Source of the DNA: Candidatus Aminicenantota bacterium
GTDB taxonomy: Bacteria > Acidobacteriota > Aminicenantia > UBA2199
NCBI GenBank assembly: GCA_026393835.1
Contig: JAPKZK010000113.1
Span: 1-64,000, forward strand
DNA: 64,000 bases
Reading direction: 5' to 3'
Below are positions 6,235 to 64,000 of this stretch, piece after piece (position 1 is the stretch's first letter; every line of letters begins with the position of its first letter). Both the position numbers and the translations under genes were made by a program. The notes beneath the pieces were generated by a model. The model did not search any database. It was not told the DNA's origin and saw nothing but the letters and a program-made list of their open reading frames with translations.

Positions 6235-7047
6235 TTACCTTTTGCTTAAGTGCTTGTGTCCGGGTTTGTTGTAACGGACCGCCTGGAGTTCGGAGATAAT
6301 GGAGATAGCGATTTCGTCCGGGTTTTCGCCGCCGATATCCAGGCCCACCGGCGTGTAGAGGGTATTCAAATCAATATCGGGTCCCAGGTCTTCGGTCAGT
6401 TGTTGAATCATTAATTCCCCTTTGTTCCGGGAAGCGATCAAGCCGATGTATTTAGGGTCCCACCGGGCTTCATAGATGCGTTTCAGGATAACATAATCCA
6501 GCGCGTGAGAGTGGGTAGCGATGACAAAAAAACTACCGCCCGGTACATCTTCGTCTTTAAGGGCGGTTTCATAGTTGACGGTAATGCTGTATTGGGCGCC
6601 GTCGATGGTTTCCACCATGCCTTCGCGGTCATCGATAAGCGTTATGTAATAATTCAGGTTCTTGAGGTGGTAAACCAGGGCTTTGCCGATGTGCCCGGCG
6701 CCGAAGAGGTACAGCCGGGCGCCGGACCCGATGTACTCGTAGAAGAGGGTGACCGCGCCGCCGCAGATCATGCCGGTTTGTTCGCAGTCGATAATGTCAT
6801 TGTCAGGGCTGAGCGAGTATTTTTTCAGATAGTTATTTTTATCTTTCAGGCATTGGGACGCTTTTTTAACCGCCGCATATTCCAATGCGCCGCCGCCCAC
6901 CGTACCTTCTAGCCTGCCGTCCGGGGTCACCAACATCTTGGTCCCCATGCCGGCCGGACCGTGACCTTCTTTTGCCACTACCGTAATCAAAACGCCTTCT
7001 TCGCCTTTTTGTCTTACCCGCAAAATTTCTTCGTATATATCAGCCAT
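6235..7047 (-). CDS. XdhC/CoxI-family molybdenum hydroxylase maturation factor
   Basis: A 270-aa protein with the XdhC two-domain pattern. The N-terminal domain has VAKEGHGPAGMGTKMLV and the GTVGGGALE motif. The C-terminal Rossmann domain begins with LYLFGAGHIGKAL near residue 132 and ends with TPVGLDIGGENPDEIAISI. XdhC proteins bind Mo cofactor, promote its sulfuration and insert it into the large subunit. AGGAAGG lies upstream of the ATG. It sits between the membrane protein and the NTPase in the same operon. Confidence 0.92.
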   Translation of the reverse strand: MADIYEEILRVRQKGEEGVLITVVAKEGHGPAGMGTKMLVTPDGRLEGTVGGGALEYAAVKKASQCLKDKNNYLKKYSLSPDNDIIDCEQTGMICGGAVTLFYEYIGSGARLYLFGAGHIGKALVYHLKNLNYYITLIDDREGMVETIDGAQYSITVNYETALKDEDVPGGSFFVIATHSHALDYVILKRIYEARWDPKYIGLIASRNKGELMIQQLTEDLGPDIDLNTLYTPVGLDIGGENPDEIAISIISELQAVRYNKPGHKHLSKR

Positions 7048-7067
7048 TAATAGCCTTCCTTATTGTT

Positions 7068-7760
7068 TTATATGACCGGGGTAAATCCCGACAGGATTAT
7101 CCTGGTAAGAATTGCCGCGGCAAACACCGTACAGGAAAAAGACAACCCCGCATCGACAGCGCCGATCGACTTCCATTGAATCCCGGAACGATTCCTTTCG
7201 AGGGATTGTCCCGTTTTGAGGTAAACAATGATAATGGCGGCGTTCACCAGGGATTCCAGCAGGAAGAAGCGGATGATATTTCCTATCCCGATTTGGAAGA
7301 AATCATCGGAGATAGAAAAAATAAGCAGGCTGAAGGAGTAAAGGATAAAGGCGGCGCGCCATCCGGCGGCGGCCGTCAGCGCCTCCCGGAAACGGAAGAC
7401 CCGCCGGTTTTCCAGCAGGACTTTGTAAATAATCATTAATACGGCGCCTTCCATGAGGATGGCCAGGGCGGGATTAATGGTTACAATTGGGCCGGGACCG
7501 GGTAAAAAGAGGTCCGCCAGTTTGACGGCAGCCGCCGTGACGGATACGCTGAACAGGGAGATGGCTTTCCCGCTTTCTCGATAGGCGCGGGTCATAAAAT
7601 AGAAACCGATGGGGAACATGATAAAGCCCGCGATGCCGGGGATAATCGCGACCAGGTGGACCAGGTATCCCAGGGTCGCTTCGGCGATGCCCCACAGGGA
7701 ACCCCAGAACAGCGATACGGTCAGTATTTCTTTTATGTTGGTTTTATTCATTTTCATCAA
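7068..7760 (-). CDS. Integral membrane protein at the head of the molybdenum hydroxylase operon
   Basis: A 230-aa protein with about six hydrophobic segments (residues ~14-34, 40-58, 68-88, 95-115, 130-152 and 200-225). I do not recognise the family. It is the first gene of the operon: AAAGGAGG lies upstream of the ATG and a promoter with a dyad lies just beyond. Co-transcription with xdhC-like and hydroxylase genes suggests a substrate- or cofactor-related membrane function, for example an ECF S-component-like carrier. No sequence motif proves it. Confidence 0.75.
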   Translation of the reverse strand: MMKMNKTNIKEILTVSLFWGSLWGIAEATLGYLVHLVAIIPGIAGFIMFPIGFYFMTRAYRESGKAISLFSVSVTAAAVKLADLFLPGPGPIVTINPALAILMEGAVLMIIYKVLLENRRVFRFREALTAAAGWRAAFILYSFSLLIFSISDDFFQIGIGNIIRFFLLESLVNAAIIIVYLKTGQSLERNRSGIQWKSIGAVDAGLSFSCTVFAAAILTRIILSGFTPVI

Positions 7761-7794
7761 GCCTCCTTTGAAGGTTAACGGGATTTAGAATTTA

Positions 7795-7822
7795 ATTATA
7801 CCACCGGTAGTATAAAATTCAA
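7795..7822 (-). promoter_or_regulatory. Promoter and operator-like dyad of the molybdenum hydroxylase operon
   Basis: Read on the minus strand: TTGAAT (-35, 7817-7822), a 16-bp spacer, then TATAAT (-10, 7795-7800), about 35 bp before the first gene. The spacer and -10 overlap a near-perfect dyad, ATACYACCGGTRGTAT (7798-7813), which suits a repressor or activator site. The same dyad could also act as a terminator hairpin for the gene ending at 7827. Confidence 0.55.
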
Positions 7823-7826
7823 AGTT

Positions 7827-9125
7827 TTAAAGCGAATTTTCCCAAATGTGACAGAGGTTGTTTTGACCCAGGGCATACTCATAATTCGACAGGGGGGGGC
7901 ATAATGCATTAAAGGTACAGCGCCGGCAGGGCGTCGCTTTTTTTCTTGTCCTCCGCCAACTAGAGCCCCGGTACATCTCTTTGTACACCATATCGTAAAT
8001 ACTATCCCCGGCAAGAGTTCCCAGGCGGGGGGCGTTGACATCGGCATGGATATGACCGTTACTTAATATGGTTAATGTTCCGAAATGAAGCGGATTAATA
8101 CACTGGCGGGCCAGGATTTCCGTCATTGTGGGCCTGGCTTCCTCCAGGTCTTGCTTATCGACAAAAACCGCCTGCCGGAAAAACTCCCGGTTCCTGCCGT
8201 TAAAAAATGGATAAAATGAGTGGTTTTCCAGGCGATGCCGGGCAATCAACTCTTCCGCTGCATCGCTGTCCGCTTCCCCGGCAATAATAAAAAGAAAGTG
8301 CGTACCCGGCCGGTTTACCGCCGGCGCCCCTATTATCTCCTCCCATTGCCGGGTTTTTACGGGAAACGGGACCACGATCTTTAAGGAAAAAGAGCCGGCC
8401 GGGAACTGCGCTATTTTTTTTTCTTGACCGGCCAGGTTCAAGTAATGGGTATAAAAAAATTTCTCGGCGGGCAGCGCCGGCGCGTTTAATATTTCCGGCA
8501 ATTGCTCCCATTGGGAAAATTTGAAAATATCTCCCCCCAGGATATTCAACCGCGCCAATGAAGACCCCTGCAATTGCTGCAACAGGTTTTTTACAGACCG
8601 GGGTTCCAGTTCCGCCCGGGTGTTCCTGCCGCGGGTACAGCACAGGAATTGCCGGTGGGCGGAACCACACAGGCCGCAATCCAGGCCGCAGGCAGAGTTT
8701 ATGTATATGGAAACTTCCGCCGCGTATTTCATCATGCGGTCGCCCACCGCCGCCGAACCCCGGGTGCTTTTTTTGATAACTTCGACATCCTGCTGGATAT
8801 TCGGATAAGGCGCCATTTGCATGGGCTTGCCCCGGGTAAGCGCCGCGTCGATTAAATCCCCCATAAAAAAAGTCCTCATGTCCTTTACAAACCGGGATAC
8901 CCCCGGGTTGGCCAACTCCTTACCGGTTAAACCGACGACCTGTAAATTCCCGGGAGAGCGCAGGCGCTTTACCAATCGAATCACTGTTTCACAATCCCGG
9001 TATTCCAGGATTTTCCCGGTCAGGGAGTTATAGAACAAGGCGGACTTTCCGCGCACGGACACATGGACATAATTATCCAGGATAAACCAAAAACTTTGAG
9101 ATTTTTTTGGGGATTGTTTAGGCAA
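7827..9125 (-). CDS. Second radical-SAM-like SPASM protein of the GG-leader RiPP system ('pseudo-rSAM' family)
   Basis: A 432-aa protein resembling the pseudo-rSAM proteins of GG-Bacteroidales natural product systems. The N-terminus has the typical 'FWFILDNYVHVSVRG...LFYNSLTGKILEY' layout, split here around residues 12-42. The middle has CGLDCGLC (residues ~145-152), a complete CxxxCxxC pattern despite the family name. The SPASM-like C-terminus has Cys near 340, CRRC near 400, and further Cys. Its start overlaps the stop of the maturase gene by 8 bp, so the two are coupled. It probably assists or carries out a second modification of the precursor at 10851-11021. Confidence 0.82.
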   Translation of the reverse strand: MPKQSPKKSQSFWFILDNYVHVSVRGKSALFYNSLTGKILEYRDCETVIRLVKRLRSPGNLQVVGLTGKELANPGVSRFVKDMRTFFMGDLIDAALTRGKPMQMAPYPNIQQDVEVIKKSTRGSAAVGDRMMKYAAEVSIYINSACGLDCGLCGSAHRQFLCCTRGRNTRAELEPRSVKNLLQQLQGSSLARLNILGGDIFKFSQWEQLPEILNAPALPAEKFFYTHYLNLAGQEKKIAQFPAGSFSLKIVVPFPVKTRQWEEIIGAPAVNRPGTHFLFIIAGEADSDAAEELIARHRLENHSFYPFFNGRNREFFRQAVFVDKQDLEEARPTMTEILARQCINPLHFGTLTILSNGHIHADVNAPRLGTLAGDSIYDMVYKEMYRGSSWRRTRKKATPCRRCTFNALCPPLSNYEYALGQNNLCHIWENSL

Positions 9126-10767
9126 ATCGAACCTCTTTCATAACTTTCAAATACGTTTGGGGATTTTTTTCCAGGTACGATAACTGGGTAGATAGGTAGC
9201 GGGCGAATTCTTCATCATTAAGAAGACCGCTGCAGCGGGGCTGGGGTTGGTCCATATTTAAATAAAAAATACACTGTAAACAGGCTTCCCAATTGGCGCA
9301 TGAGCAGCATTGTTTTTGCAGGCGATCGAAATAGGTGTTGTACGTGTCGGCTATTTTTTCAAAATCCAGGTCTACTTTCTTTTCATCCGCCGCGCCCAGG
9401 CTGTATTGCTGCCCGATCCGTTCACAGGGTAGTATTTTCCCCTGCACGGTGATAAAGACTTTCCTGGAAAAAGGGATACATGTGCCGGTAGGGATTTGCG
9501 CCGTATGTTTTGGGGGTTTGCCCGCTTCGGTTTTATTCCCGGCGGCGGCCACGTCGTTATAGTCATTGAAGATAAAGCCGCTGCATTGCTGGAGAAAGGA
9601 TTTCATGCCCCTGATATTGGGCAGGTTAAGAAACATATCTTTTTCCAGCAGGGAATAATCTTCGGCCTGGAAAAGCGTGGTCCCGATATTGGCATAGGTC
9701 TTGCGGAACTCTTCCCGCATGGCGGGGGCGACGCCGATGGGATTTAATTCGCTGATAGTAGGGATTTTATCAAATTGAGTTTTAAAATAGTGGTGAAGTC
9801 CGGGCGCTGTGTTGCGATTATGAATAACTGCATTGAAATTAACCCTGTCTTTAAAGTAGGCCGGGTATTTGGCCGCCAGGCCATCGATATTCTTTAAAAC
9901 CTCTCGATACGCCGGCGTCCCGTCTTTAAACACCCGGTAGGAATTGCCGTATTCATCGCCGTCCAGGCTGATCAGTAAGTCGAAATCATGTTCCACCAGG
10001 AAATCCATGTATTTTCCCAGCAGGAGGCCGTTGGTGGTCATATTAAATTGAAAATGATTATGCAGGGGTTTTAATTGGCGGGCATAGGCAACCACCTCCC
10101 GGATGAAGGGAAAATCCAACAGGGGTTCTCCGCCGTAAAATCCGATATGAAAAACCTGTTGATGGGATTGGTTCAGTGGGGAGTTTAATAAATCCAGCAG
10201 GTAATTTAGCACATTTTGGGCCGTACCGGCGCTTAATTGCCTGTTCCCGCGTTGTTCATTAATATTATAAAATTTTCCATAGGCGCAGTAGGCGCATTCG
10301 AGATTGCAATAGTCCACCACTTCGAAGGTTACTTGCCTGGTATTGGCCAGGGAGGCTTTAATTTGTCCCGCGGATAACCTCCCGCTTAACAAAGACCCGG
10401 TATCCGGCGGAGAAAAATAACCGTTTTCTCGCAGCAGCCTATATTTACGATAGTAATAAGCTATTTCCGGTTTTGAAGCGGCGCCGTAATCCTCTATTTG
10501 TACGGGATCATCGTTTAACTCCCCGTACCATTGCTCCACATCCAGGCCTTGGCGGTGTAATCGAAGTATGTGGTAGAGCACCGGGTGGCACCATTGGGTG
10601 CTTTTTACGGTTGGATCATAGAGATACTTATTTTTGTTTTGGCTCTCAAGCAGCACTTGCAGTTTCCTTTGGGTATTAGCAAGGGCAATAGTATGGCAAG
10701 TAAAGGCAGTAGAAGATTGTCTTCTACTGCCTTTACAGTTTAATGCCGGGCAGTTCTCACAAAACAC
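9118..10767 (-). CDS. Radical SAM peptide maturase (SPASM), GG-leader RiPP system
   Basis: A 549-aa radical SAM enzyme. The [4Fe-4S]/SAM motif is CNLECAYC at residues ~152-159, followed by a GFYGGEPLLDF motif near 210. C-terminal SPASM-type cysteines are CIPFSR near 435, PCER near 452 and CCSCANWEACLQC near 487-499. The N-terminus has an extra Cys cluster, CENC-x4-NC. The start is a GTG at 10767: the frame closes seven codons upstream and there is no ATG. The nearest match I recall is the GG-Bacteroidales peptide maturase family. It lies 83 bp after the precursor gene and would modify that peptide (thioether or C-C crosslinks; chemistry unknown). Confidence 0.88.
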   Translation of the reverse strand: MFCENCPALNCKGSRRQSSTAFTCHTIALANTQRKLQVLLESQNKNKYLYDPTVKSTQWCHPVLYHILRLHRQGLDVEQWYGELNDDPVQIEDYGAASKPEIAYYYRKYRLLRENGYFSPPDTGSLLSGRLSAGQIKASLANTRQVTFEVVDYCNLECAYCAYGKFYNINEQRGNRQLSAGTAQNVLNYLLDLLNSPLNQSHQQVFHIGFYGGEPLLDFPFIREVVAYARQLKPLHNHFQFNMTTNGLLLGKYMDFLVEHDFDLLISLDGDEYGNSYRVFKDGTPAYREVLKNIDGLAAKYPAYFKDRVNFNAVIHNRNTAPGLHHYFKTQFDKIPTISELNPIGVAPAMREEFRKTYANIGTTLFQAEDYSLLEKDMFLNLPNIRGMKSFLQQCSGFIFNDYNDVAAAGNKTEAGKPPKHTAQIPTGTCIPFSRKVFITVQGKILPCERIGQQYSLGAADEKKVDLDFEKIADTYNTYFDRLQKQCCSCANWEACLQCIFYLNMDQPQPRCSGLLNDEEFARYLSTQLSYLEKNPQTYLKVMKEVRFA

Positions 10768-10850
10768 CCGGGGAAATAAAAGCGATTACCCATTATCACT
10801 ATTGTCCGTTGATGTTAGGCGTATGGTATAATTTTTCGCCGTTTCAGCAC

Positions 10851-25298: not shown

Positions 25299-25327
25299 TT
25301 GACTTTTTTAGGGGGAATGGGTATAGT
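25299..25327 (+). promoter_or_regulatory. Promoter of the TIR/WD40 operon
   Basis: TTGACT (25299-25304), a 17-bp spacer and TATAGT (25322-25327), 45 bp before the TIR gene. AAAGGAG precedes the ATG. Confidence 0.7.
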
Positions 25328-25372
25328 TACCTATAACCTTAAATCTGTCGCCTTAACAAAGGAGAGAAAAAC

Positions 25373-26923
25373 ATGAGGAAATGTTTTATTAGTTATCGAC
25401 ATGTCAAACCGGATGAAGACCTGGCTCATTTTTTGGAAAAATTTCTTAACCAAAACGGGCATAAGGTTTTCGTGGATACCCAGATTCTTGTGGGCACAAA
25501 ATGGGCAAAGGAAATTGAAAAACAAATAAAATCGTCCGATTCCTTCATTATTCTTTTGTCCAAAGATTCCATCCGCAGCGATATGGTGCGGCAAGAAGTG
25601 GTACTGGCCCATACTCTGTCGCAAGAGCGGGGAGAGCAATTTATTATCTTGCCTATTCGTGTGGATTTTAAAGGGGAACTACCCTATGATCTGGGTGCCT
25701 ATCTTGATTCTATTCAATATGCGCTATGGACGCACAGTACCACGCCCGATACTATCGCAGGACAGATTTTAGCAGCCATGGAAAAGCATGAGTTCCTCCC
25801 GATAAAGAGAAAAGCGAATGATGAAAGCGCTTCAACTGAAGGTATAAAAGACCTTTACGAGGTCACCGATGGTATTGGGGCGCCGCTGCCGGCAGCAGAT
25901 CCCCGATTTGCAACCTGGGTGGAACTGGAAACCGGGATTGTAAGGCTAGATTCCCCGTTTTATGCCAAACGTCAGGCGGATGAGGATGTTATGAACCAGA
26001 TCCGTAAAACCGGTTCCACCACAATTCTAAAAGGGTCACGGCAGATGGGAAAGAGTTCGTTACTTGCCAGGGCGCATGCCGAAGCAAAAAACCTGCAAAT
26101 GCACTCCTGTTACCTTGACTTTCAATTCATCGACAAATCGCATTTAACAAGTCTGGACACACTGTTCCGGTACCTAGCGCACAAAATATGCCGAGAGTTT
26201 AAGACCGCCTTGAAACCGGATGAATGCTGGGATACGTTCCTGGGGGCCAAAGACAATCTTACGGATTTTATCGGCGTGGCTTTGTTGAAGGAAGCCGGGG
26301 CGCCGGTGCTGCTCTTACTGGATGAGGTAGACCGGTTGTTCGATTGCCCTTTCCGGGACGATTTTTTCGCCACTATCCGTGGCTGGCATAATCTCAGGGC
26401 CACTGAAGAAAGCTGGAACAAACTGAACCTGGTAATTGCCCATTCCACGGAACCTTATCTCTGGATACAGGATATCAACCAATCCCCTTTTAATGTGGGA
26501 TTGCCGGTGCAGTTGGAGGATTTTGACTTTCACCAGGTATCGGAATTGAATAGCAAACACGGCGACCCATTGAAAACAGACGATGAAATAAAAGAATCGA
26601 TGGACCTTACGGGTGGGCAGCCGTTCCTGGTACGCCTGGCATTGTATATGTTGAAAAAAGACAACTACAGCATATCCCAATTAAAAAAAGTAGCCACTGA
26701 CGACAGGGGGCCTTTCGGCGACCATTTACGGCGCTTTGCCTGGCGTTTGCAAGCGGAAAAAGAAGTGAAAAAGAGCCTTCAACAAATACTGGACAAAGGC
26801 GCGTGCGATAAGGAAGAACATTTCTTACGCCTCAGGGCCGGGGGGCTGGTGAAGGGTGAAACGCGACATGATGTACACATGCGCTGTCAACTTTATTATG
26901 ATTATTTCAAGGAGCATTTATGA
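25373..26923 (+). CDS. TIR domain - AAA-like ATPase protein
   Basis: A 516-aa protein. Residues 1-~135 are a TIR domain: it begins CFISYRH, has the FVDTQ loop, and retains a Glu in MVRQEVVLAH (~residue 85), where NADase TIRs place the catalytic Glu. Residues ~180-510 are an AAA-like (AAA_35-type) ATPase with Walker A LKGSRQMGKSS near 222-232 and Walker B LLLLDEVDRLF near 310-320. Its stop overlaps the start of the WD40 gene (ATGA), so the two form one unit. TIR fused to a STAND-like NTPase typically means ligand-triggered NAD+ depletion or signal production. Antiphage function is inferred, not shown. Confidence 0.85.
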   Translation: MRKCFISYRHVKPDEDLAHFLEKFLNQNGHKVFVDTQILVGTKWAKEIEKQIKSSDSFIILLSKDSIRSDMVRQEVVLAHTLSQERGEQFIILPIRVDFKGELPYDLGAYLDSIQYALWTHSTTPDTIAGQILAAMEKHEFLPIKRKANDESASTEGIKDLYEVTDGIGAPLPAADPRFATWVELETGIVRLDSPFYAKRQADEDVMNQIRKTGSTTILKGSRQMGKSSLLARAHAEAKNLQMHSCYLDFQFIDKSHLTSLDTLFRYLAHKICREFKTALKPDECWDTFLGAKDNLTDFIGVALLKEAGAPVLLLLDEVDRLFDCPFRDDFFATIRGWHNLRATEESWNKLNLVIAHSTEPYLWIQDINQSPFNVGLPVQLEDFDFHQVSELNSKHGDPLKTDDEIKESMDLTGGQPFLVRLALYMLKKDNYSISQLKKVATDDRGPFGDHLRRFAWRLQAEKEVKKSLQQILDKGACDKEEHFLRLRAGGLVKGETRHDVHMRCQLYYDYFKEHL

Positions 26924-29900
26924 GTAACCTGGATAAACGCGACGATGCGTTTTATATTGTGGGTGGCGCCATGCGGCCGGATGCGCCCAGTTATATCGAA
27001 AGGAATGCCGACCAGAAGCTTTATGAGCGAACATTGGCGGGTGATTTTTGTTATGTATTGACGCCCCGCCAGATGGGTAAATCTAGCTTGATGGCCCGCA
27101 CAGCCGACCGGTTAACGAAAGAGGGGGTTCGTACGGCCATCGTGGACTTGACCCAGATCGGCACGGAGCAGGAGAAAAATTCCGCCGACCGTTGGTATTA
27201 TGGTATTGCTCATCGAATTGTTAAAGAAATGGGCATCGCTGTAAAGCTGTCCCAATGGTGGGAAGAACGGGAAAAACTTCCTGCGTTACAGCGATTGACT
27301 GAATTCTTCGCCGATGTGATTCTTGCCGGAACCAATGAGCAGGTGGTAATATTTGTAGATGAGATCGATACCACCATTGGACTGCCGTTCACCGATGATT
27401 TTTTTGCTGCGATTCGCGCATGTTACAATGCCCGAGCCACTCAACCGGGGTACCGGCGTTTGAGTTTTGTACTTATTGGCGTGGCCACCCCTTCCCAGTT
27501 GATCAAAAATGCACGCCGGACACCGTTTAATATCGGCCAGCAGATCGAGCTTACAGATTTTACCTTTGAAGAAGCACAGCCCCTGTCGCGGTATCTGGGC
27601 GCAAACCGGAACCAGGGAGAAGATGCGCTTAAACGCATTCTTTATTGGTCCGGCGGTCATCCCTATTTGACGCAGAGACTCTGCTGTTTGGCGGCTGGGG
27701 AGAAATTGGAAGTTTACCTTGATGATTCCATAGACCGTCTTGTGGAAAAACATTTCCTGGCGCCTGGGGTGAATTGCGGGGATTCCAATATAAAATTTGT
27801 TCGCGATCGATTGTTACAAAAAAAAAAATACAGCCGAAAATTGCTGACGCTTTACCTCCGCATTTTTAAGGGTCGCTTCATTATGGATGAGCCACTGTCG
27901 TTCACTCATGCATTTCTAAAATTATCCGGTTTAGTGGTCCCGTCGATTAACCGGAAATTATGCGTGCGTAACCGCATTTACAAAAGTATTTTTACAAGGG
28001 AGTGGGTAAAAGAAGCGATGCCCATCAATTGGCCCAGGGATATTTCCATTGCTTCGATTGCAGTATTATTATTGGGTTTAGCTATCTGGTACACGCAACT
28101 TCTACCCAGGCTGTATATTGAGGTGATACGTACAGCAATTGACGATGTGCCAGTTGGCGCATATGAAAAATTGAGAAATATATCCAACTTTGCCGATAAA
28201 GCAGATGATCTATTAGCCGGGTATTGGGATCGCCGTGCTTTGCGTACTGTGGCGCAGGGAAAGCGGGATGAAGGATTGTTATACTACTTGAAAGCTATAA
28301 CAGTGAAGGACACAGGACCCGGACGTTATGAGGCGGGTCGTCTTACCAGCGGCGATTACACTGAGCTCCAGGTCACATACCGGTGCAATAGTGGGGTTCG
28401 TGCGGTGGCGTTCAGCCCGAAGTGCAGCCCGAACGGCGAAACCGTACTAACCGGAAGCTCCGATGGTACGGCGCGGTTGTGGCGGGCCGAAGATGGAAAA
28501 CCTATAGCTGCACCCCTCAACCATGGAGGTTGGATTAATGCGGTAGCCTTCAGCCCGGATGGCAAAACCGTGCTGACCGGAAGCTTAAATGGTACGGCGC
28601 GGTTGTGGCGGGCCGACAACGGCAGACTCTTGGCTGAACCCATCAGACATGGTGGTCGGATTTATGCGGCAGCCTTCAGCCCGGATGGCAAAACTGTGCT
28701 GACCGGAAGCGATGATGGTACGGCGCGGTTGTGGTGGGCCGATAACGGCAAACCCATGACGAAACCCATCAAACATGGAGGCTGGGTCCTTGCGGTAGCC
28801 TTCAGCCCGGATGGCAATACCGTGTTGACCGGAAGCGATGATGGTACGGCCCAGTTCTGGCGGGCAGATAACAGCAGCCCTTTAGGTAAACCCATCAGGC
28901 ATGGAGGTAGGATTACTGCGGTGGCCTTCAGCCCGGATGGCAAAACTGTGTTGTCCGGGAGCGATAATGGTACGGCGCGGTTGTGGCGGGCCGATAACGG
29001 CAGCCCCATAGGTGAACCCATCAAACATGAACGCCCCGTTACTGCGGTGGCCTTCAGCAGCCCGGATGGCAAAACAGTGCTGACCGGAAGTTCTGATGGT
29101 ACGGCACGGATGTGGCTGACCGGTAACGGTAGCCCAACAGGTGAACTCATCAACTATGGCGATTGGATCACTGCGGCAGCCTTCAGCCCGGATGGCAATA
29201 TTGTTCTCACCGGAAGCTCTGATGGTACCGCGCGGTTTTGGCGGGCCGATAACGGCAGTTCCATAGGTGAACCCATCAAAAGTGGAAGCCATTTTCTTGC
29301 GGTGGCCTTCAGCCCAGATGGCAATACCGTTCTCACCGGAAGTTCTGATGGTACGGCGCAGTTTTGGCGGGCCGATGACTGCAGTCCCATAGGTGAACCC
29401 ATCAAACATGGGGGCAGGGTTTATGCGGTAGCCTTCAGCCCGGATGGCAAAACTGTGCTGACCGGAAGCGATGATGGTACAGTGCGGTTGTGGCAGTCCG
29501 ATAAGAGCAACCCTATGGGTGATCCCCTCAAACATGGGGGTAGGATTTATGCGGTGGCCTTCAGCTCGGATAGTAAAACCGCTCTGACCGGGAGCTCTGA
29601 TGGTACAGTGCGGTTGTGGCGGACCGATGACCGAAAACCATTGAGTGAACTCATAAAACCTGGAGGTAGGATTTGTGCGGTAGCCTTCAGCCCAGATGGT
29701 AAAGCTGTAATAACCGCGACTGACTGGTGGATACATCAATATGTTGTTGATGAAAATACGCTTAAACCCAAAGCCAGTCGCTTACTTCCCGGAGTAGGGA
29801 CCGGTGCGTATCATTTTTTGGATGATAAGGGAGACACACTGCAAATGGCTGCCCTTATCACCGGGGATTCCATTAAAATTATTACAGTGCGTTTCGATAT

Positions 29901-30066
29901 CCCCGATGCCCCGCCCATCCAGGGGGACCCCAAAAAATTATTGGCGGAATGGCAAAAAAAGTTGGCCCTGAAATTAAATGATGACGGCAAGATTGAACCC
30001 ATGTACTTGGAAAATAGAATGATGAATGATGAAGAAAAGATAGAAGGTGAGAAGGTAAGAGGGTGA
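26920..30066 (+). CDS. AAA-like ATPase - transmembrane - WD40 repeat protein
   Basis: A 1048-aa partner of the TIR protein. Residues ~1-330 are an AAA_35-type ATPase homologous to the one in the TIR gene, with Walker A LTPRQMGKSS near 47-56 and Walker B VVIFVDEIDTTIG near 142-154. A membrane helix lies at ~373-393 (ISIASIAVLLLGLAIWY). From ~490 to ~945 there are 11 WD40 repeats of 42 residues (126 bp), each with AVAFSPDGKTVLTGS and DGTARLWRA motifs, and they are highly similar to one another at DNA level. The architecture (sensor repeats plus NTPase plus membrane anchor) suits a sensor component that recruits or activates the TIR ATPase. Confidence 0.85.
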   Translation: MSNLDKRDDAFYIVGGAMRPDAPSYIERNADQKLYERTLAGDFCYVLTPRQMGKSSLMARTADRLTKEGVRTAIVDLTQIGTEQEKNSADRWYYGIAHRIVKEMGIAVKLSQWWEEREKLPALQRLTEFFADVILAGTNEQVVIFVDEIDTTIGLPFTDDFFAAIRACYNARATQPGYRRLSFVLIGVATPSQLIKNARRTPFNIGQQIELTDFTFEEAQPLSRYLGANRNQGEDALKRILYWSGGHPYLTQRLCCLAAGEKLEVYLDDSIDRLVEKHFLAPGVNCGDSNIKFVRDRLLQKKKYSRKLLTLYLRIFKGRFIMDEPLSFTHAFLKLSGLVVPSINRKLCVRNRIYKSIFTREWVKEAMPINWPRDISIASIAVLLLGLAIWYTQLLPRLYIEVIRTAIDDVPVGAYEKLRNISNFADKADDLLAGYWDRRALRTVAQGKRDEGLLYYLKAITVKDTGPGRYEAGRLTSGDYTELQVTYRCNSGVRAVAFSPKCSPNGETVLTGSSDGTARLWRAEDGKPIAAPLNHGGWINAVAFSPDGKTVLTGSLNGTARLWRADNGRLLAEPIRHGGRIYAAAFSPDGKTVLTGSDDGTARLWWADNGKPMTKPIKHGGWVLAVAFSPDGNTVLTGSDDGTAQFWRADNSSPLGKPIRHGGRITAVAFSPDGKTVLSGSDNGTARLWRADNGSPIGEPIKHERPVTAVAFSSPDGKTVLTGSSDGTARMWLTGNGSPTGELINYGDWITAAAFSPDGNIVLTGSSDGTARFWRADNGSSIGEPIKSGSHFLAVAFSPDGNTVLTGSSDGTAQFWRADDCSPIGEPIKHGGRVYAVAFSPDGKTVLTGSDDGTVRLWQSDKSNPMGDPLKHGGRIYAVAFSSDSKTALTGSSDGTVRLWRTDDRKPLSELIKPGGRICAVAFSPDGKAVITATDWWIHQYVVDENTLKPKASRLLPGVGTGAYHFLDDKGDTLQMAALITGDSIKIITVRFDIPDAPPIQGDPKKLLAEWQKKLALKLNDDGKIEPMYLENRMMNDEEKIEGEKVRG

Positions 30067-30367: not shown

Positions 30368-30706
30368 TTACACTCCCATCAATTTGTATTTTTCTATAAA
30401 TTTATTGTCCTCTTCTAAAAACATCAGTATCCTTTGCGCCGGACCTTGCGGCTTATTTCTACCACATTCCCATGCTTCAATGGTCTTTTTTGATACCCCG
30501 ATAACATAAGCGAAGGTAGATTGAGAAATACCCAATCTTTTTCTTATTTCCTTTATTTTGGGGGCTTTATAGTCAGGCAATGGAGCAATCGACATTTTTC
30601 TTGAAGTGACACCTATAACCTTTTTACCTTTCTCATAATCGACAGCTTGCTCCAGTGCAGTTATTAATCCTTCACCAACCGTCATATCTTTATAGTTTTT
30701 TTTCAT
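30368..30706 (-). CDS. HigA-like helix-turn-helix antitoxin
   Basis: A 112-aa protein starting at an ATG with a strong GGGAGG site 8 nt upstream. The C-terminal half is a Xre/HipB-type HTH: KIKEIRKRLGISQSTFAYVIG then VSKKTIEAWECGRNKPQGPA, given here in two parts. It has the length and layout of HigA2/RelB-partner antitoxins. The frame stays open upstream to an ATG at 30784; that extension looks like the start of a deleted toxin (separate entry). The antitoxin itself appears complete. Confidence 0.75.
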   Translation of the reverse strand: MKKNYKDMTVGEGLITALEQAVDYEKGKKVIGVTSRKMSIAPLPDYKAPKIKEIRKRLGISQSTFAYVIGVSKKTIEAWECGRNKPQGPAQRILMFLEEDNKFIEKYKLMGV

Positions 30707-30784
30707 AGTTTCTTCCTCCCCCACTCTTCCCTTTACTTCCCATAGTTTATTGAAAATATCCAGGTTTATAAATTCTCTATTCAT
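30707..30784 (-). pseudogene. Remnant of a RelE/HigB-type toxin, N-terminus only
   Basis: From the ATG at 30784 the frame reads MNREFINLDIFNKLWE and then about ten residues before the antitoxin ATG, in frame with it. That opening matches my recollection of RelE/HigB2-type toxins, which begin with (K/S)REF(I/V)-x-x-x-IF and continue for ~100 residues. The rest is missing, consistent with an internal deletion. The ATG lies 6 nt downstream of a consensus -10, so translation would be leaderless. Confidence 0.5.
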
Positions 30785-30876: not shown

Positions 30877-31215
30877 TTCTTCCTCCTATCGTTTCCCGAC
30901 CCCCGGATGCGACATAATGGGTGCTTTATATCGCAACTCGATCCCCGGATGCCACAGGAAGGGTGCTTCCTATCGCAACTCGACCCCCGGATGCCACAGG
31001 AAGGGTGCTTCCTATCGCAACTCGACCTCCGGATGCCACAGGAAGGGTGCTTCCTATCGCAACTCGACCTCCGGATGCCACAGGAAGGGTGCTTCCTATC
31101 GCAACTCGACCTCCGGATGCCACAGGAAGGGTGCTTCCTATCGTTTCCCGACCCCCGGATGCCACAGGAAGGGTGCTTCCTATCGCTTCTCAACCCCCGG
31201 ATGCCACAGGAAGGG
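30877..31215. repeat. Tandem hairpin array 2 (about 8 units, 42-bp period)
   Basis: Units of 42 bp: CGACCCCCGGATGCCAC, then a hairpin AGGAAG-GGTG-CTTCCT, then ATCGCAACT. Six units carry the standard hairpin (starting near 30955, 30997, 31039, 31081, 31123 and 31165). The first is divergent, with ATAATG-GGTG-CTTTAT, and the last is truncated. All reading frames through it give 14-residue repeat ORFs, which I treat as by-products. The spacing of hairpins is regular and there are no unique spacers, so this is not CRISPR. Confidence 0.9.
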
Positions 31216-62878: not shown

Positions 62879-64000
62879 TCAAAAGTCCTTTTCTTCATCG
62901 TACAATACAATATATGTCCTGGTAAGGATATCCTCCACGATTTCCTGCTCTTCCCGGAAATATTTAAAACTCCTTCGTTTTACATAATCTTTGTAATGAC
63001 CGATAATAAGATCGAAATTTAAGCGCCGCCTTTTGCCGTCTTCACCCGGGCAAAACAGGGACTTTAAATCGATATTCATGAGAAACCGCCCGCTCTCTCC
63101 ATTGGCATAGGGATAAAATGCATCATAAACCGCTTTTTTGTACATGGGCACCCAGAATTCCACGTAACCGTCTTTGTCTTTTTTGATCAGACCGTGGGCA
63201 TGAAGGAACTTTATTTTTTCATCATTTATTTTGTATTTATGTTTCCCATCCGTAAACAGCAGGGTTTCGACGAATTTCCGATACTCTTTGGCTTTATCGA
63301 TGATATTGGCAATATTTTTATCGATGGCTTCAGTGAGATACCAATCTTCCACCACCAGGTAATCATTATAATCGATGAGTTCCTTGTCGGGATTTCGTTC
63401 AACCAGTTGATAAGCAAAGCCGTTGACCAGCCCCGGTTGATTGGCGGTTATGGCGCAAATTTTTTCTTTGACTTCCCGGTGGAAAAACTGGCCGGTCTCT
63501 TCCTCGTGCATATGCAGCAGGGCAAACGTTTCTTCCGGGGTAAAATAGGGTATTTCGAGGTTATCGGCAATATTAAAAGGGCTGGCATCTTCCTGCACCA
63601 CGCCCACGATATTGCTGACCCCTACCAGGATGACGGATTTCAGACTATGTTCATCGCGGATTTGATAAAGATTCCGGATAGTATGAAGAAATTGGCCGAA
63701 AATTTTTTGATTCAGTCCTTCAATCTCATCGATCACCAGGACTATTTTTCGATCTTTTACCCGTTTGAGTTCATCATACACATCAGAGAATATTCGTCCT
63801 TTCAATTCCAGTTGAAGCGTTTCCTTGAATTCGTTGGAGATGAAGGATAAGAAACTTTTTTCATTGGCGCTTTTGAAATTTTCCAGGTTGATGTGGAGCA
63901 CCTGGTAGCCGATGGTTTCGAGCTCTTTTGCCAGCATCCGGAAATAAGTGCTCTTACCCGTCTGGCGCGGCGCCCAGATAGTGAAGTAACTTCGTTTTTT
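62879..64000 (-). CDS. AAA-like ATPase, runs off the right edge
   Basis: The frame is open to the window edge, so the N-terminus is missing. Read from the edge: YFTIWAPRQTGKSTYFRML, a Walker A, then VLVIDEIEGLNQKIFGQFLH (Walker B) and SVILVGVSNI. The C-terminal ~120 residues (VEFWVPMYKKAVYDAFYPY, then a DLIIGHYKDY-like end) fit AAA-like ATPases with a nuclease-related tail. It resembles the AAA modules at 25373-30066 (Walker A with P-R-Q-x-G-K-S) and may belong to the same broad group. The ATG at 63937 is internal. Confidence 0.75.
   Translation of the reverse strand, partial: KKRSYFTIWAPRQTGKSTYFRMLAKELETIGYQVLHINLENFKSANEKSFLSFISNEFKETLQLELKGRIFSDVYDELKRVKDRKIVLVIDEIEGLNQKIFGQFLHTIRNLYQIRDEHSLKSVILVGVSNIVGVVQEDASPFNIADNLEIPYFTPEETFALLHMHEEETGQFFHREVKEKICAITANQPGLVNGFAYQLVERNPDKELIDYNDYLVVEDWYLTEAIDKNIANIIDKAKEYRKFVETLLFTDGKHKYKINDEKIKFLHAHGLIKKDKDGYVEFWVPMYKKAVYDAFYPYANGESGRFLMNIDLKSLFCPGEDGKRRRLNFDLIIGHYKDYVKRRSFKYFREEQEIVEDILTRTYIVLYDEEKDF

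Follow-up and report, generated by a model that had tools for sequence, protein, structure and literature searches.

A TIR-ATPase and an ATPase-WD40 membrane protein encoded as a recurrent gene pair, a candidate split STAND receptor of bacteria

A twin-ATPase gene pair in the window

The window, the whole stretch of DNA that was analyzed, comprises 64,000 nucleotides of contig JAPKZK010000113.1 from a Candidatus Aminicenantota genome of 8.2 Mb. It contains two genes that an earlier note, made from the letters alone, had described as coupled through an ATGA overlap. Both open reading frames and the overlap were found as described, and the features of the locus are as follows.

25299..25327 (+), sigma-70-like promoter match TTGACT-17-TATAGT, 5' of gene A (consensus match only)
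25358..25364 (+), Shine-Dalgarno sequence AAAGGAG of gene A
25373..26923 (+), gene A, TIR-AAA_35 chain (effector side), 516 aa (ORF and Pfam)
25373..25747 (+), TIR domain, residues 1-125 (TIR_2 at residues 5-121, E 9.6e-20; structural match to the SARM1 TIR)
25595..25597 (+), catalytic-type Glu of the TIR domain, E75, in an S-D-M-V-x-x-E helix (kept in 49/50 paired TIR domains)
25931..26914 (+), AAA_35 ATPase of chain A, residues 187-514 (E 1.6e-90; model pLDDT 88.5)
26033..26059 (+), Walker A of chain A, GSRQMGKSS (K227 in 59/60 A chains)
26309..26332 (+), Walker B of chain A, LLLLDEVD (D317 in 60/60 and E318 in 55/60 A chains)
26909..26914 (+), Shine-Dalgarno sequence AAGGAG of gene B, within the 3' end of gene A
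26920..26923 (+), ATGA stop/start overlap of genes A and B (read in the sequence; same -4 overlap in G013 C242)
26920..30066 (+), gene B, AAA_35-TM-WD40 chain (sensor side), 1048 aa (ORF and Pfam)
26965..27678 (+), AAA_35 ATPase of chain B, residues 16-253 (E 1.1e-36)
27061..27087 (+), Walker A of chain B, TPRQMGKSS (K54 in 30/30 B chains)
27346..27369 (+), Walker B of chain B, VIFVDEID (D147 and E148 in 30/30 B chains)
28048..28104 (+), single transmembrane (TM) helix candidate, about residues 373-395, coordinates for 377-395 (hydropathy; helix 371-405 in the model)
28384..29724 (+), WD40 propeller of 11 units, proposed extracytoplasmic sensor (WD40 E 7.9e-96, 10 Pfam repeats)
29725..30063 (+), C-terminal tail of chain B, 63% identical to that of the G013 chain B (no domain matched)

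The scan for promoters gave 13 sigma-70-like matches in all, with 6.9 expected by chance. The lptFG genes adjoin the pair, and a divergent lptF-type neighbor is kept in G003, whose gene A is 78% identical to that of the window (64% in G013).

Domains and folds of the two chains

AAA_35 (PF14516) was matched with 303.7 bits in chain A and 126.8 bits in chain B (Pfam gathering cut-off, 27), and it was also matched in 60/60 relatives of A and 45/45 relatives of B. The Walker A sequence RQMGKSS, previously reported for both ATPases, was indeed read in both chains, and Walker A and Walker B are intact across the family on either side. A solved structure for AAA_35 was sought at the sequence level, and none was found. 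In the model of chain A (pLDDT 88.5), a low-confidence linker joins the TIR domain to the ATPase; the best PDB match was the plant TIR-NLR RPP1 (E 1.3e-12), with a global TM-score of only about 0.4, probably because the domain orientation differs. The TIR domain by itself matched the SARM1 TIR with a TM-score of 0.72 to 0.74 by target length, and the SPARTA TIR was matched as well. The structural matches, the TIR_2 match, and the Glu, which the earlier note had identified correctly, show a TIR fold with a catalytic-type residue. That this Glu is so rarely lost suggests that the TIR domain is an enzyme rather than an adaptor. Since the kinase-bearing A chains of relatives likewise keep HRD and DFG in the 14 that have the motif, the effectors look like working enzymes. 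An NADase activity of the TIR chain is predicted.

Chain B runs from AAA_35 through helical or winged-type segments (to about residue 370), the TM helix, and a helical linker to the WD40 propeller and the tail. The single TM candidate and the 11 propeller units agree with the membrane helix and 11 repeats noted before. Each unit has about 42 aa (126 bp), the units of this protein are 52 to 79% identical to one another, and a 126-bp tandem array spans 28425-29703. Compared with the nearest relative, G003, the WD40 part is 54% identical and the ATPase 78%, as would be expected of a fast-changing sensor. The model of chain B matched Orc/Cdc6-type AAA+ proteins, Avs3, Avs4, EfAvs5, MalT (8bob), and RPP1. 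The fold matches of both models support a predicted STAND/AAA+ switch.

The pair recurs and is coinherited

GTDB genome contigs were scanned with the alignment of the B chain alone, so that loci were not selected for A. The 79 loci kept came from Acidobacteriota, Cyanobacteriota, Chloroflexota, Verrucomicrobiota, Planctomycetota, Nitrospirota, and Gammaproteobacteria, and a plasmid of Abditibacteriota with a match to the chain A ATPase added an eighth phylum. An A gene lay within 1 kb of 62/84 B chains, in every one of the 62 upstream and on the same strand; on a Chlorohelix plasmid the order is reversed (B, then A). Where B was unlinked, 14 of the 16 genomes hold A elsewhere, and no A accompanies B in G427 or G435. 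An Anaerolineae genome carries two B-type genes in tandem (L125 278-5466, +), with no A chain found there.

The same picture emerged among 396 genomes of the phylum. A was present in 9 and B-type matches in 11, and all 9 genomes with A have B (Fisher p 9e-17); the 2 with B-type matches but no A are G272 (a partial match only) and G320 (a weak match). In relatives of the same genus or family, the A and B genes are adjacent, with the identical 4-nt overlap in G013. The ATPase domains of A and B fall into two clean clades (support, 1.0). The A and B trees mirror each other with r = 0.887 (permutation maximum, 0.15), a correlation that by itself could reflect a common species history, so that the weight rests on the A|B split and the linkage. 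On this phylogeny, A and B are best taken as two ancient sister ATPase clades with a common history. Since the pair is conserved in other genomes, its pairing in the window is not due to chance. The TIR-AAA_35 gene and its AAA-TM-WD40 partner are conserved as neighbors, the homologues are not usually found singly, and the pair is a genuine two-protein unit, as the earlier note had claimed.

One scan alone gave at least 576 confirmed stretches of the module. The pair occurs mostly in large genomes, and it was also found on 36 plasmids, most of them cyanobacterial. In RefSeq, the proteins are named "AAA-like domain-containing protein".

Effectors and sensors are exchanged around a constant core

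Chain A varies at its N terminus around a constant ATPase, and chain B varies at its C terminus. Local profiles assigned the 81 A chains to TIR (20), CHAT-TIR (13), kinase (11), kinase-TIR (10), SARP/wHTH (6), trypsin-TIR, HTH-TIR, HTH, and PNP (2 each), and trypsin and CHAT (1 each); 7 more had no or a short N terminus, and 4 fell into no class, one of these being TIR by Pfam. Pfam gave a similar list for 60 A chains: TIR_2 (45), CHAT (14), kinase (13), BTAD (3), PNP, trypsin, and HTH (2 each), and bDLD1 and guanylate cyclase (1 each). The chains with SARP fused to AAA_35 are those of L131, L141, and L158. At least 27 changes of effector architecture were counted on a tree of 63 tips. On the other side, WD40 repeats form the C terminus of 23/45 B chains, and other ends are FGE-like (by motif), TPR, PEGA, and CHAT.

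Two loci have unusual fusions. At L086 457-4319 (-) on G007 C602, a divergent pair, a TIR-AAA_35 gene overlaps a gene for an AAA_35-L-asparaginase fusion by 4 nt. In L095, a kinase-TIR-AAA_35 A chain is followed by a B chain (6831-10820, +) that has the B-type AAA_35 twice in tandem; this fusion of two B ATPases fits neighboring subunits in one assembly.

Membrane topology of chain B

A single helix separates the ATP-using domain of chain B from its sensor, and the sensor is therefore expected outside the cytosol. Indeed, the flank on the ATPase side of the helix was the more positive one in 42 proteins and the less positive one in 11; in the chain B of the window, both flanks are nearly charge neutral and the bias is small. 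The placement of the sensor was read from the relatives. In L113, PEGA domains follow the helix. On plasmid pNsp_e of Nostoc sp. ATCC 53789, the B chain (L192 9040-13368, +) has the order AAA_35-TM-WD40-murein amidase with one hydrophobic segment only, and its amidase matched a solved cell wall hydrolase (E 4e-44). The substrate of such an amidase is peptidoglycan, so the WD40 repeats between helix and amidase should be outside. In the B chain of L129, a weak TM candidate is followed by a CHAT protease, which would be odd for an outside location. Taken together, these features make an extracytoplasmic sensor probable, and the pair would then be a transmembrane receptor and not a cytosolic NLR cut in two. 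Hence, of the earlier proposal of an NLR-like design split into an effector chain and a membrane-anchored sensor chain, the layout stands, also in view of the swapped effectors and sensors, and so does the NLR-like fold (RPP1 among the matches of both chains), but the topology disfavors a cytosolic sensor.

Comparison with known systems

Neither PADLOC nor NCBIfam has a model for the unit: PADLOC returned only partial matches at the level of TIR or the ATPase, and the NCBIfam scores were far below cut-off. The statement that no named defense system has this layout therefore holds against these two collections, and a literature search found no paper describing the AAA_35 twin pair. The novelty of the layout is nevertheless qualified by a related idea already in print. 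Nearest to the pair among published proposals stands the two-gene operon of nSTAND2 (Kaur et al. 2021, PMC8195603, Fig. 6C), a mobile unit for which a toroidal heteromultimer was proposed. nSTAND2 is placed there near DAP3, CR-ATPase, and RNA12, one of its NTPases is eroded, and its effector is mostly GT4 or HEPN (PMC8195603). That operon resembles the present pair in being a mobile unit of two genes with a STAND NTPase core on both proteins, a variable effector on one chain, and a proposed assembly of both proteins. Unlike there, Walker A and Walker B are intact on both chains here, and the effectors are TIR, CHAT, kinase, trypsin, and SARP, with neither GT4 nor HEPN among the Pfam families listed for 60 A chains. 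Also, among the Pfam ATPase models AAA_35 ranked first in both chains, which may set them apart from nSTAND2. The same source presents the MNS-clade (Npun2340/2341 family) and nSTAND1 conflict receptors as effector-STAND proteins whose N termini are TIR, caspase, trypsin, or kinase (PMC8195603). AAA_35 could be the MNS-clade NTPase family; as portrayed there, however, these are NTPases of effector-STAND proteins within a wider system, not an A/B twin pair with a TM sensor chain.

Paired plant NLRs such as CHS3-CSA1 cooperate and form hetero-oligomeric complexes (PMC11298796). RPP1 and the plant pairs have in common with our pair a TIR domain and a STAND ATPase fold, but theirs is NB-ARC with LRR, whereas here the sensor chain has a single TM helix and a WD40 domain that is probably extracytoplasmic. 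The three parts of an NLR-like receptor (effector, STAND ATPase, and repeat sensor) are all present here, distributed over two chains. With Avs proteins, chain B has the STAND fold in common (Avs3, Avs4, and EfAvs5 are among its PDB matches), but Avs are single-chain effector-STAND-sensor proteins, and no PADLOC Avs model matched the pair. A STAND ATPase followed by WD40 repeats is also found in Apaf-1 and in the fungal HNWD NLRs, the latter with a repetitive WD40 domain; in these proteins, a single chain that lacks a TM helix comprises the effector, the ATPase, and the WD40 domain. AfsR/MalT-type STAND regulators resemble the SARP-AAA_35 form of some A chains, and chain B matches MalT, but they are single chains with a cytosolic sensor. 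Thoeris differs in that only a weak ThsB-type TIR similarity was found here and in that the partner is AAA_35-WD40, not ThsA.

Proposed mechanism and alternatives

On balance, we think it probable, if narrowly so, that the pair is one split, membrane-spanning STAND/AAA+ receptor with an outside sensor, a mixed ATPase oligomer, and a TIR output. Chain B would be held in the inner membrane by its one helix, with the propeller facing outward and the ATPase in the cytosol. A signal at the propeller would switch the B ATPase, which would then form a mixed oligomer with the homologous ATPase of chain A in the cytosol. The TIR domains would thereby be crowded, NAD+ would be consumed or converted or a signal molecule would be made, and the cell would be stopped or killed (abortive infection or regulated death). 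With the same twin-ATPase core, relatives may deliver CHAT (caspase-like), kinase, protease, PNP, or transcription factor outputs. The A-B hetero-oligomer at the center of this scheme is supported indirectly: a joint assembly is suggested because the two ATPase clades are homologous, coinherited, and both intact and because two B ATPases are fused in L095.

A wider reading is possible but, in our judgment, falls short of even chances: the module may be an unrecognized, widespread class of transmembrane STAND receptors in which swappable outside sensors (WD40, PEGA, TPR, FGE-like, and murein amidase) are joined through a near-obligate ATPase pair to swappable cytosolic effectors (TIR, CHAT, kinase, protease, and transcription factor) for outside-in immune or death signaling.

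It is rather unlikely that the pair is a general transmembrane signaling module, not concerned with immunity, that passes an envelope or developmental signal to any fused output and uses TIR as a signaling or adaptor domain. The SARP/BTAD, OmpR-type wHTH, and HTH outputs would fit such a module, as would the many kinases with intact HRD and DFG, the weak defense gene neighborhood, the chromosomal site beside lptFG (likewise in G003), and the occurrence mostly in large genomes; the conserved TIR Glu, however, points to an enzyme and not an adaptor, and the CHAT, trypsin, and bDLD1 effectors, their frequent turnover, and the plasmid carriage also speak against it. A cytosolic split NLR, with B merely tethered and a cytosolic WD40 domain that detects a phage product, so that a mixed ring leads via TIR to abortive infection, we regard as unlikely. 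The positive-inside bias on the ATPase side of a single TM helix and the PEGA and murein amidase domains beyond the helix in relatives speak against it, whereas it could account for the fold matches to RPP1 and Avs3/4/5, the rapid change of the WD40 array, and the plasmid carriage, including the copy that has genes for a restriction enzyme and a TIR protein as neighbors; moreover, TIR, CHAT, trypsin, PNP, and bDLD1 match conflict system repertoires (PMC8195603). Finally, that A and B are independent proteins that happen to adjoin has hardly anything to recommend it, since only the few genomes with B alone (G427 and G435) speak for it, against a recurrent order, strand, and coinheritance in at least eight phyla.

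Is the pair an immune system?

The earlier note had taken the pair for an immune-type system, and for this claim the outcome was mixed. The effector set does overlap with that of conflict systems (TIR, caspase-like, trypsin, kinase, and Death-like; PMC8195603), and the plasmid carriage and the one pair with a type II restriction enzyme gene and a TIR gene nearby also speak for immunity, but there are regulator outputs as well, and the defense island signal is weak: defense genes were few among 134 neighbors of sampled loci, counted without a background control. Since A chains may also carry SARP, OmpR-type, or HTH domains, a kinase, or no effector at all, immunity is not the sole use. An immune role is thus plausible but unproven; we put an immune or death role of the TIR and CHAT versions at somewhat above even odds and that of the family as a whole lower.

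Carriage by phages was also considered. The pair had no match among 50,697 phage records. One candidate for phage cargo, L190 3475-7055 (+) on a contig that IMG/VR classes as viral, encodes a TIR-AAA_35 protein 48% identical to that of the window and a B chain, with a pectate-lyase-like fold farther along the contig (Pfam). This candidate was rejected, as PHROGs and the search of phage records did not confirm viral flanks, and it was not counted as defense evidence. On plasmid1 of Nostoc sp. HK-01 (L196), a gene for a chain A-like hypothetical protein and a following WD-40 gene adjoin genes for an NspV-like (type II) restriction enzyme and a TIR protein.

If the transmembrane reading is true, paired STAND receptors are to bacteria what paired NLRs are to plants, except that the bacterial sensor lies beyond the inner membrane. 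TIR-type immunity would then be tied to events at the envelope, for example the attachment of a phage, damage to the wall, or cell-cell contact. The claim is directly testable, since there are hundreds of relatives, clear active-site residues, and named cyanobacterial and Chloroflexota hosts. The module may also serve as a natural inventory of parts, in which one twin-ATPase core connects the sensors to the outputs.

Other AAA_35-like proteins and neighboring elements

The genome that carries the window (G000) has 61 AAA_35-like matches, most of them of about 540 aa and weak (20 to 83 bits), a large ATPase expansion; one lies at the window end (62882-64000, -). The idea that this 61-strong family belongs as a whole to the system described here was rejected, as the pair has 305 and 130 bits and the others about 20 to 83. 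Another operon, conserved and of three genes, occurs twice in the same genome (L166, G000 C95:12075-18312; L167, G000 C9:14583-20850) and encodes a protein of about 950 aa with two ATPase-like stretches, an AAA_35-like protein of about 595 aa, and a protein of about 540 aa with a kinase domain. On the 3' side of the pair, the window has a gene for a small, NadS-like HTH protein (30368-30784, -; 48 bits, cut-off 60) and, at 30897-31215, a 42-bp tandem repeat of 7.6 copies (93% matches) that gives rise to long spurious open reading frames in several frames.
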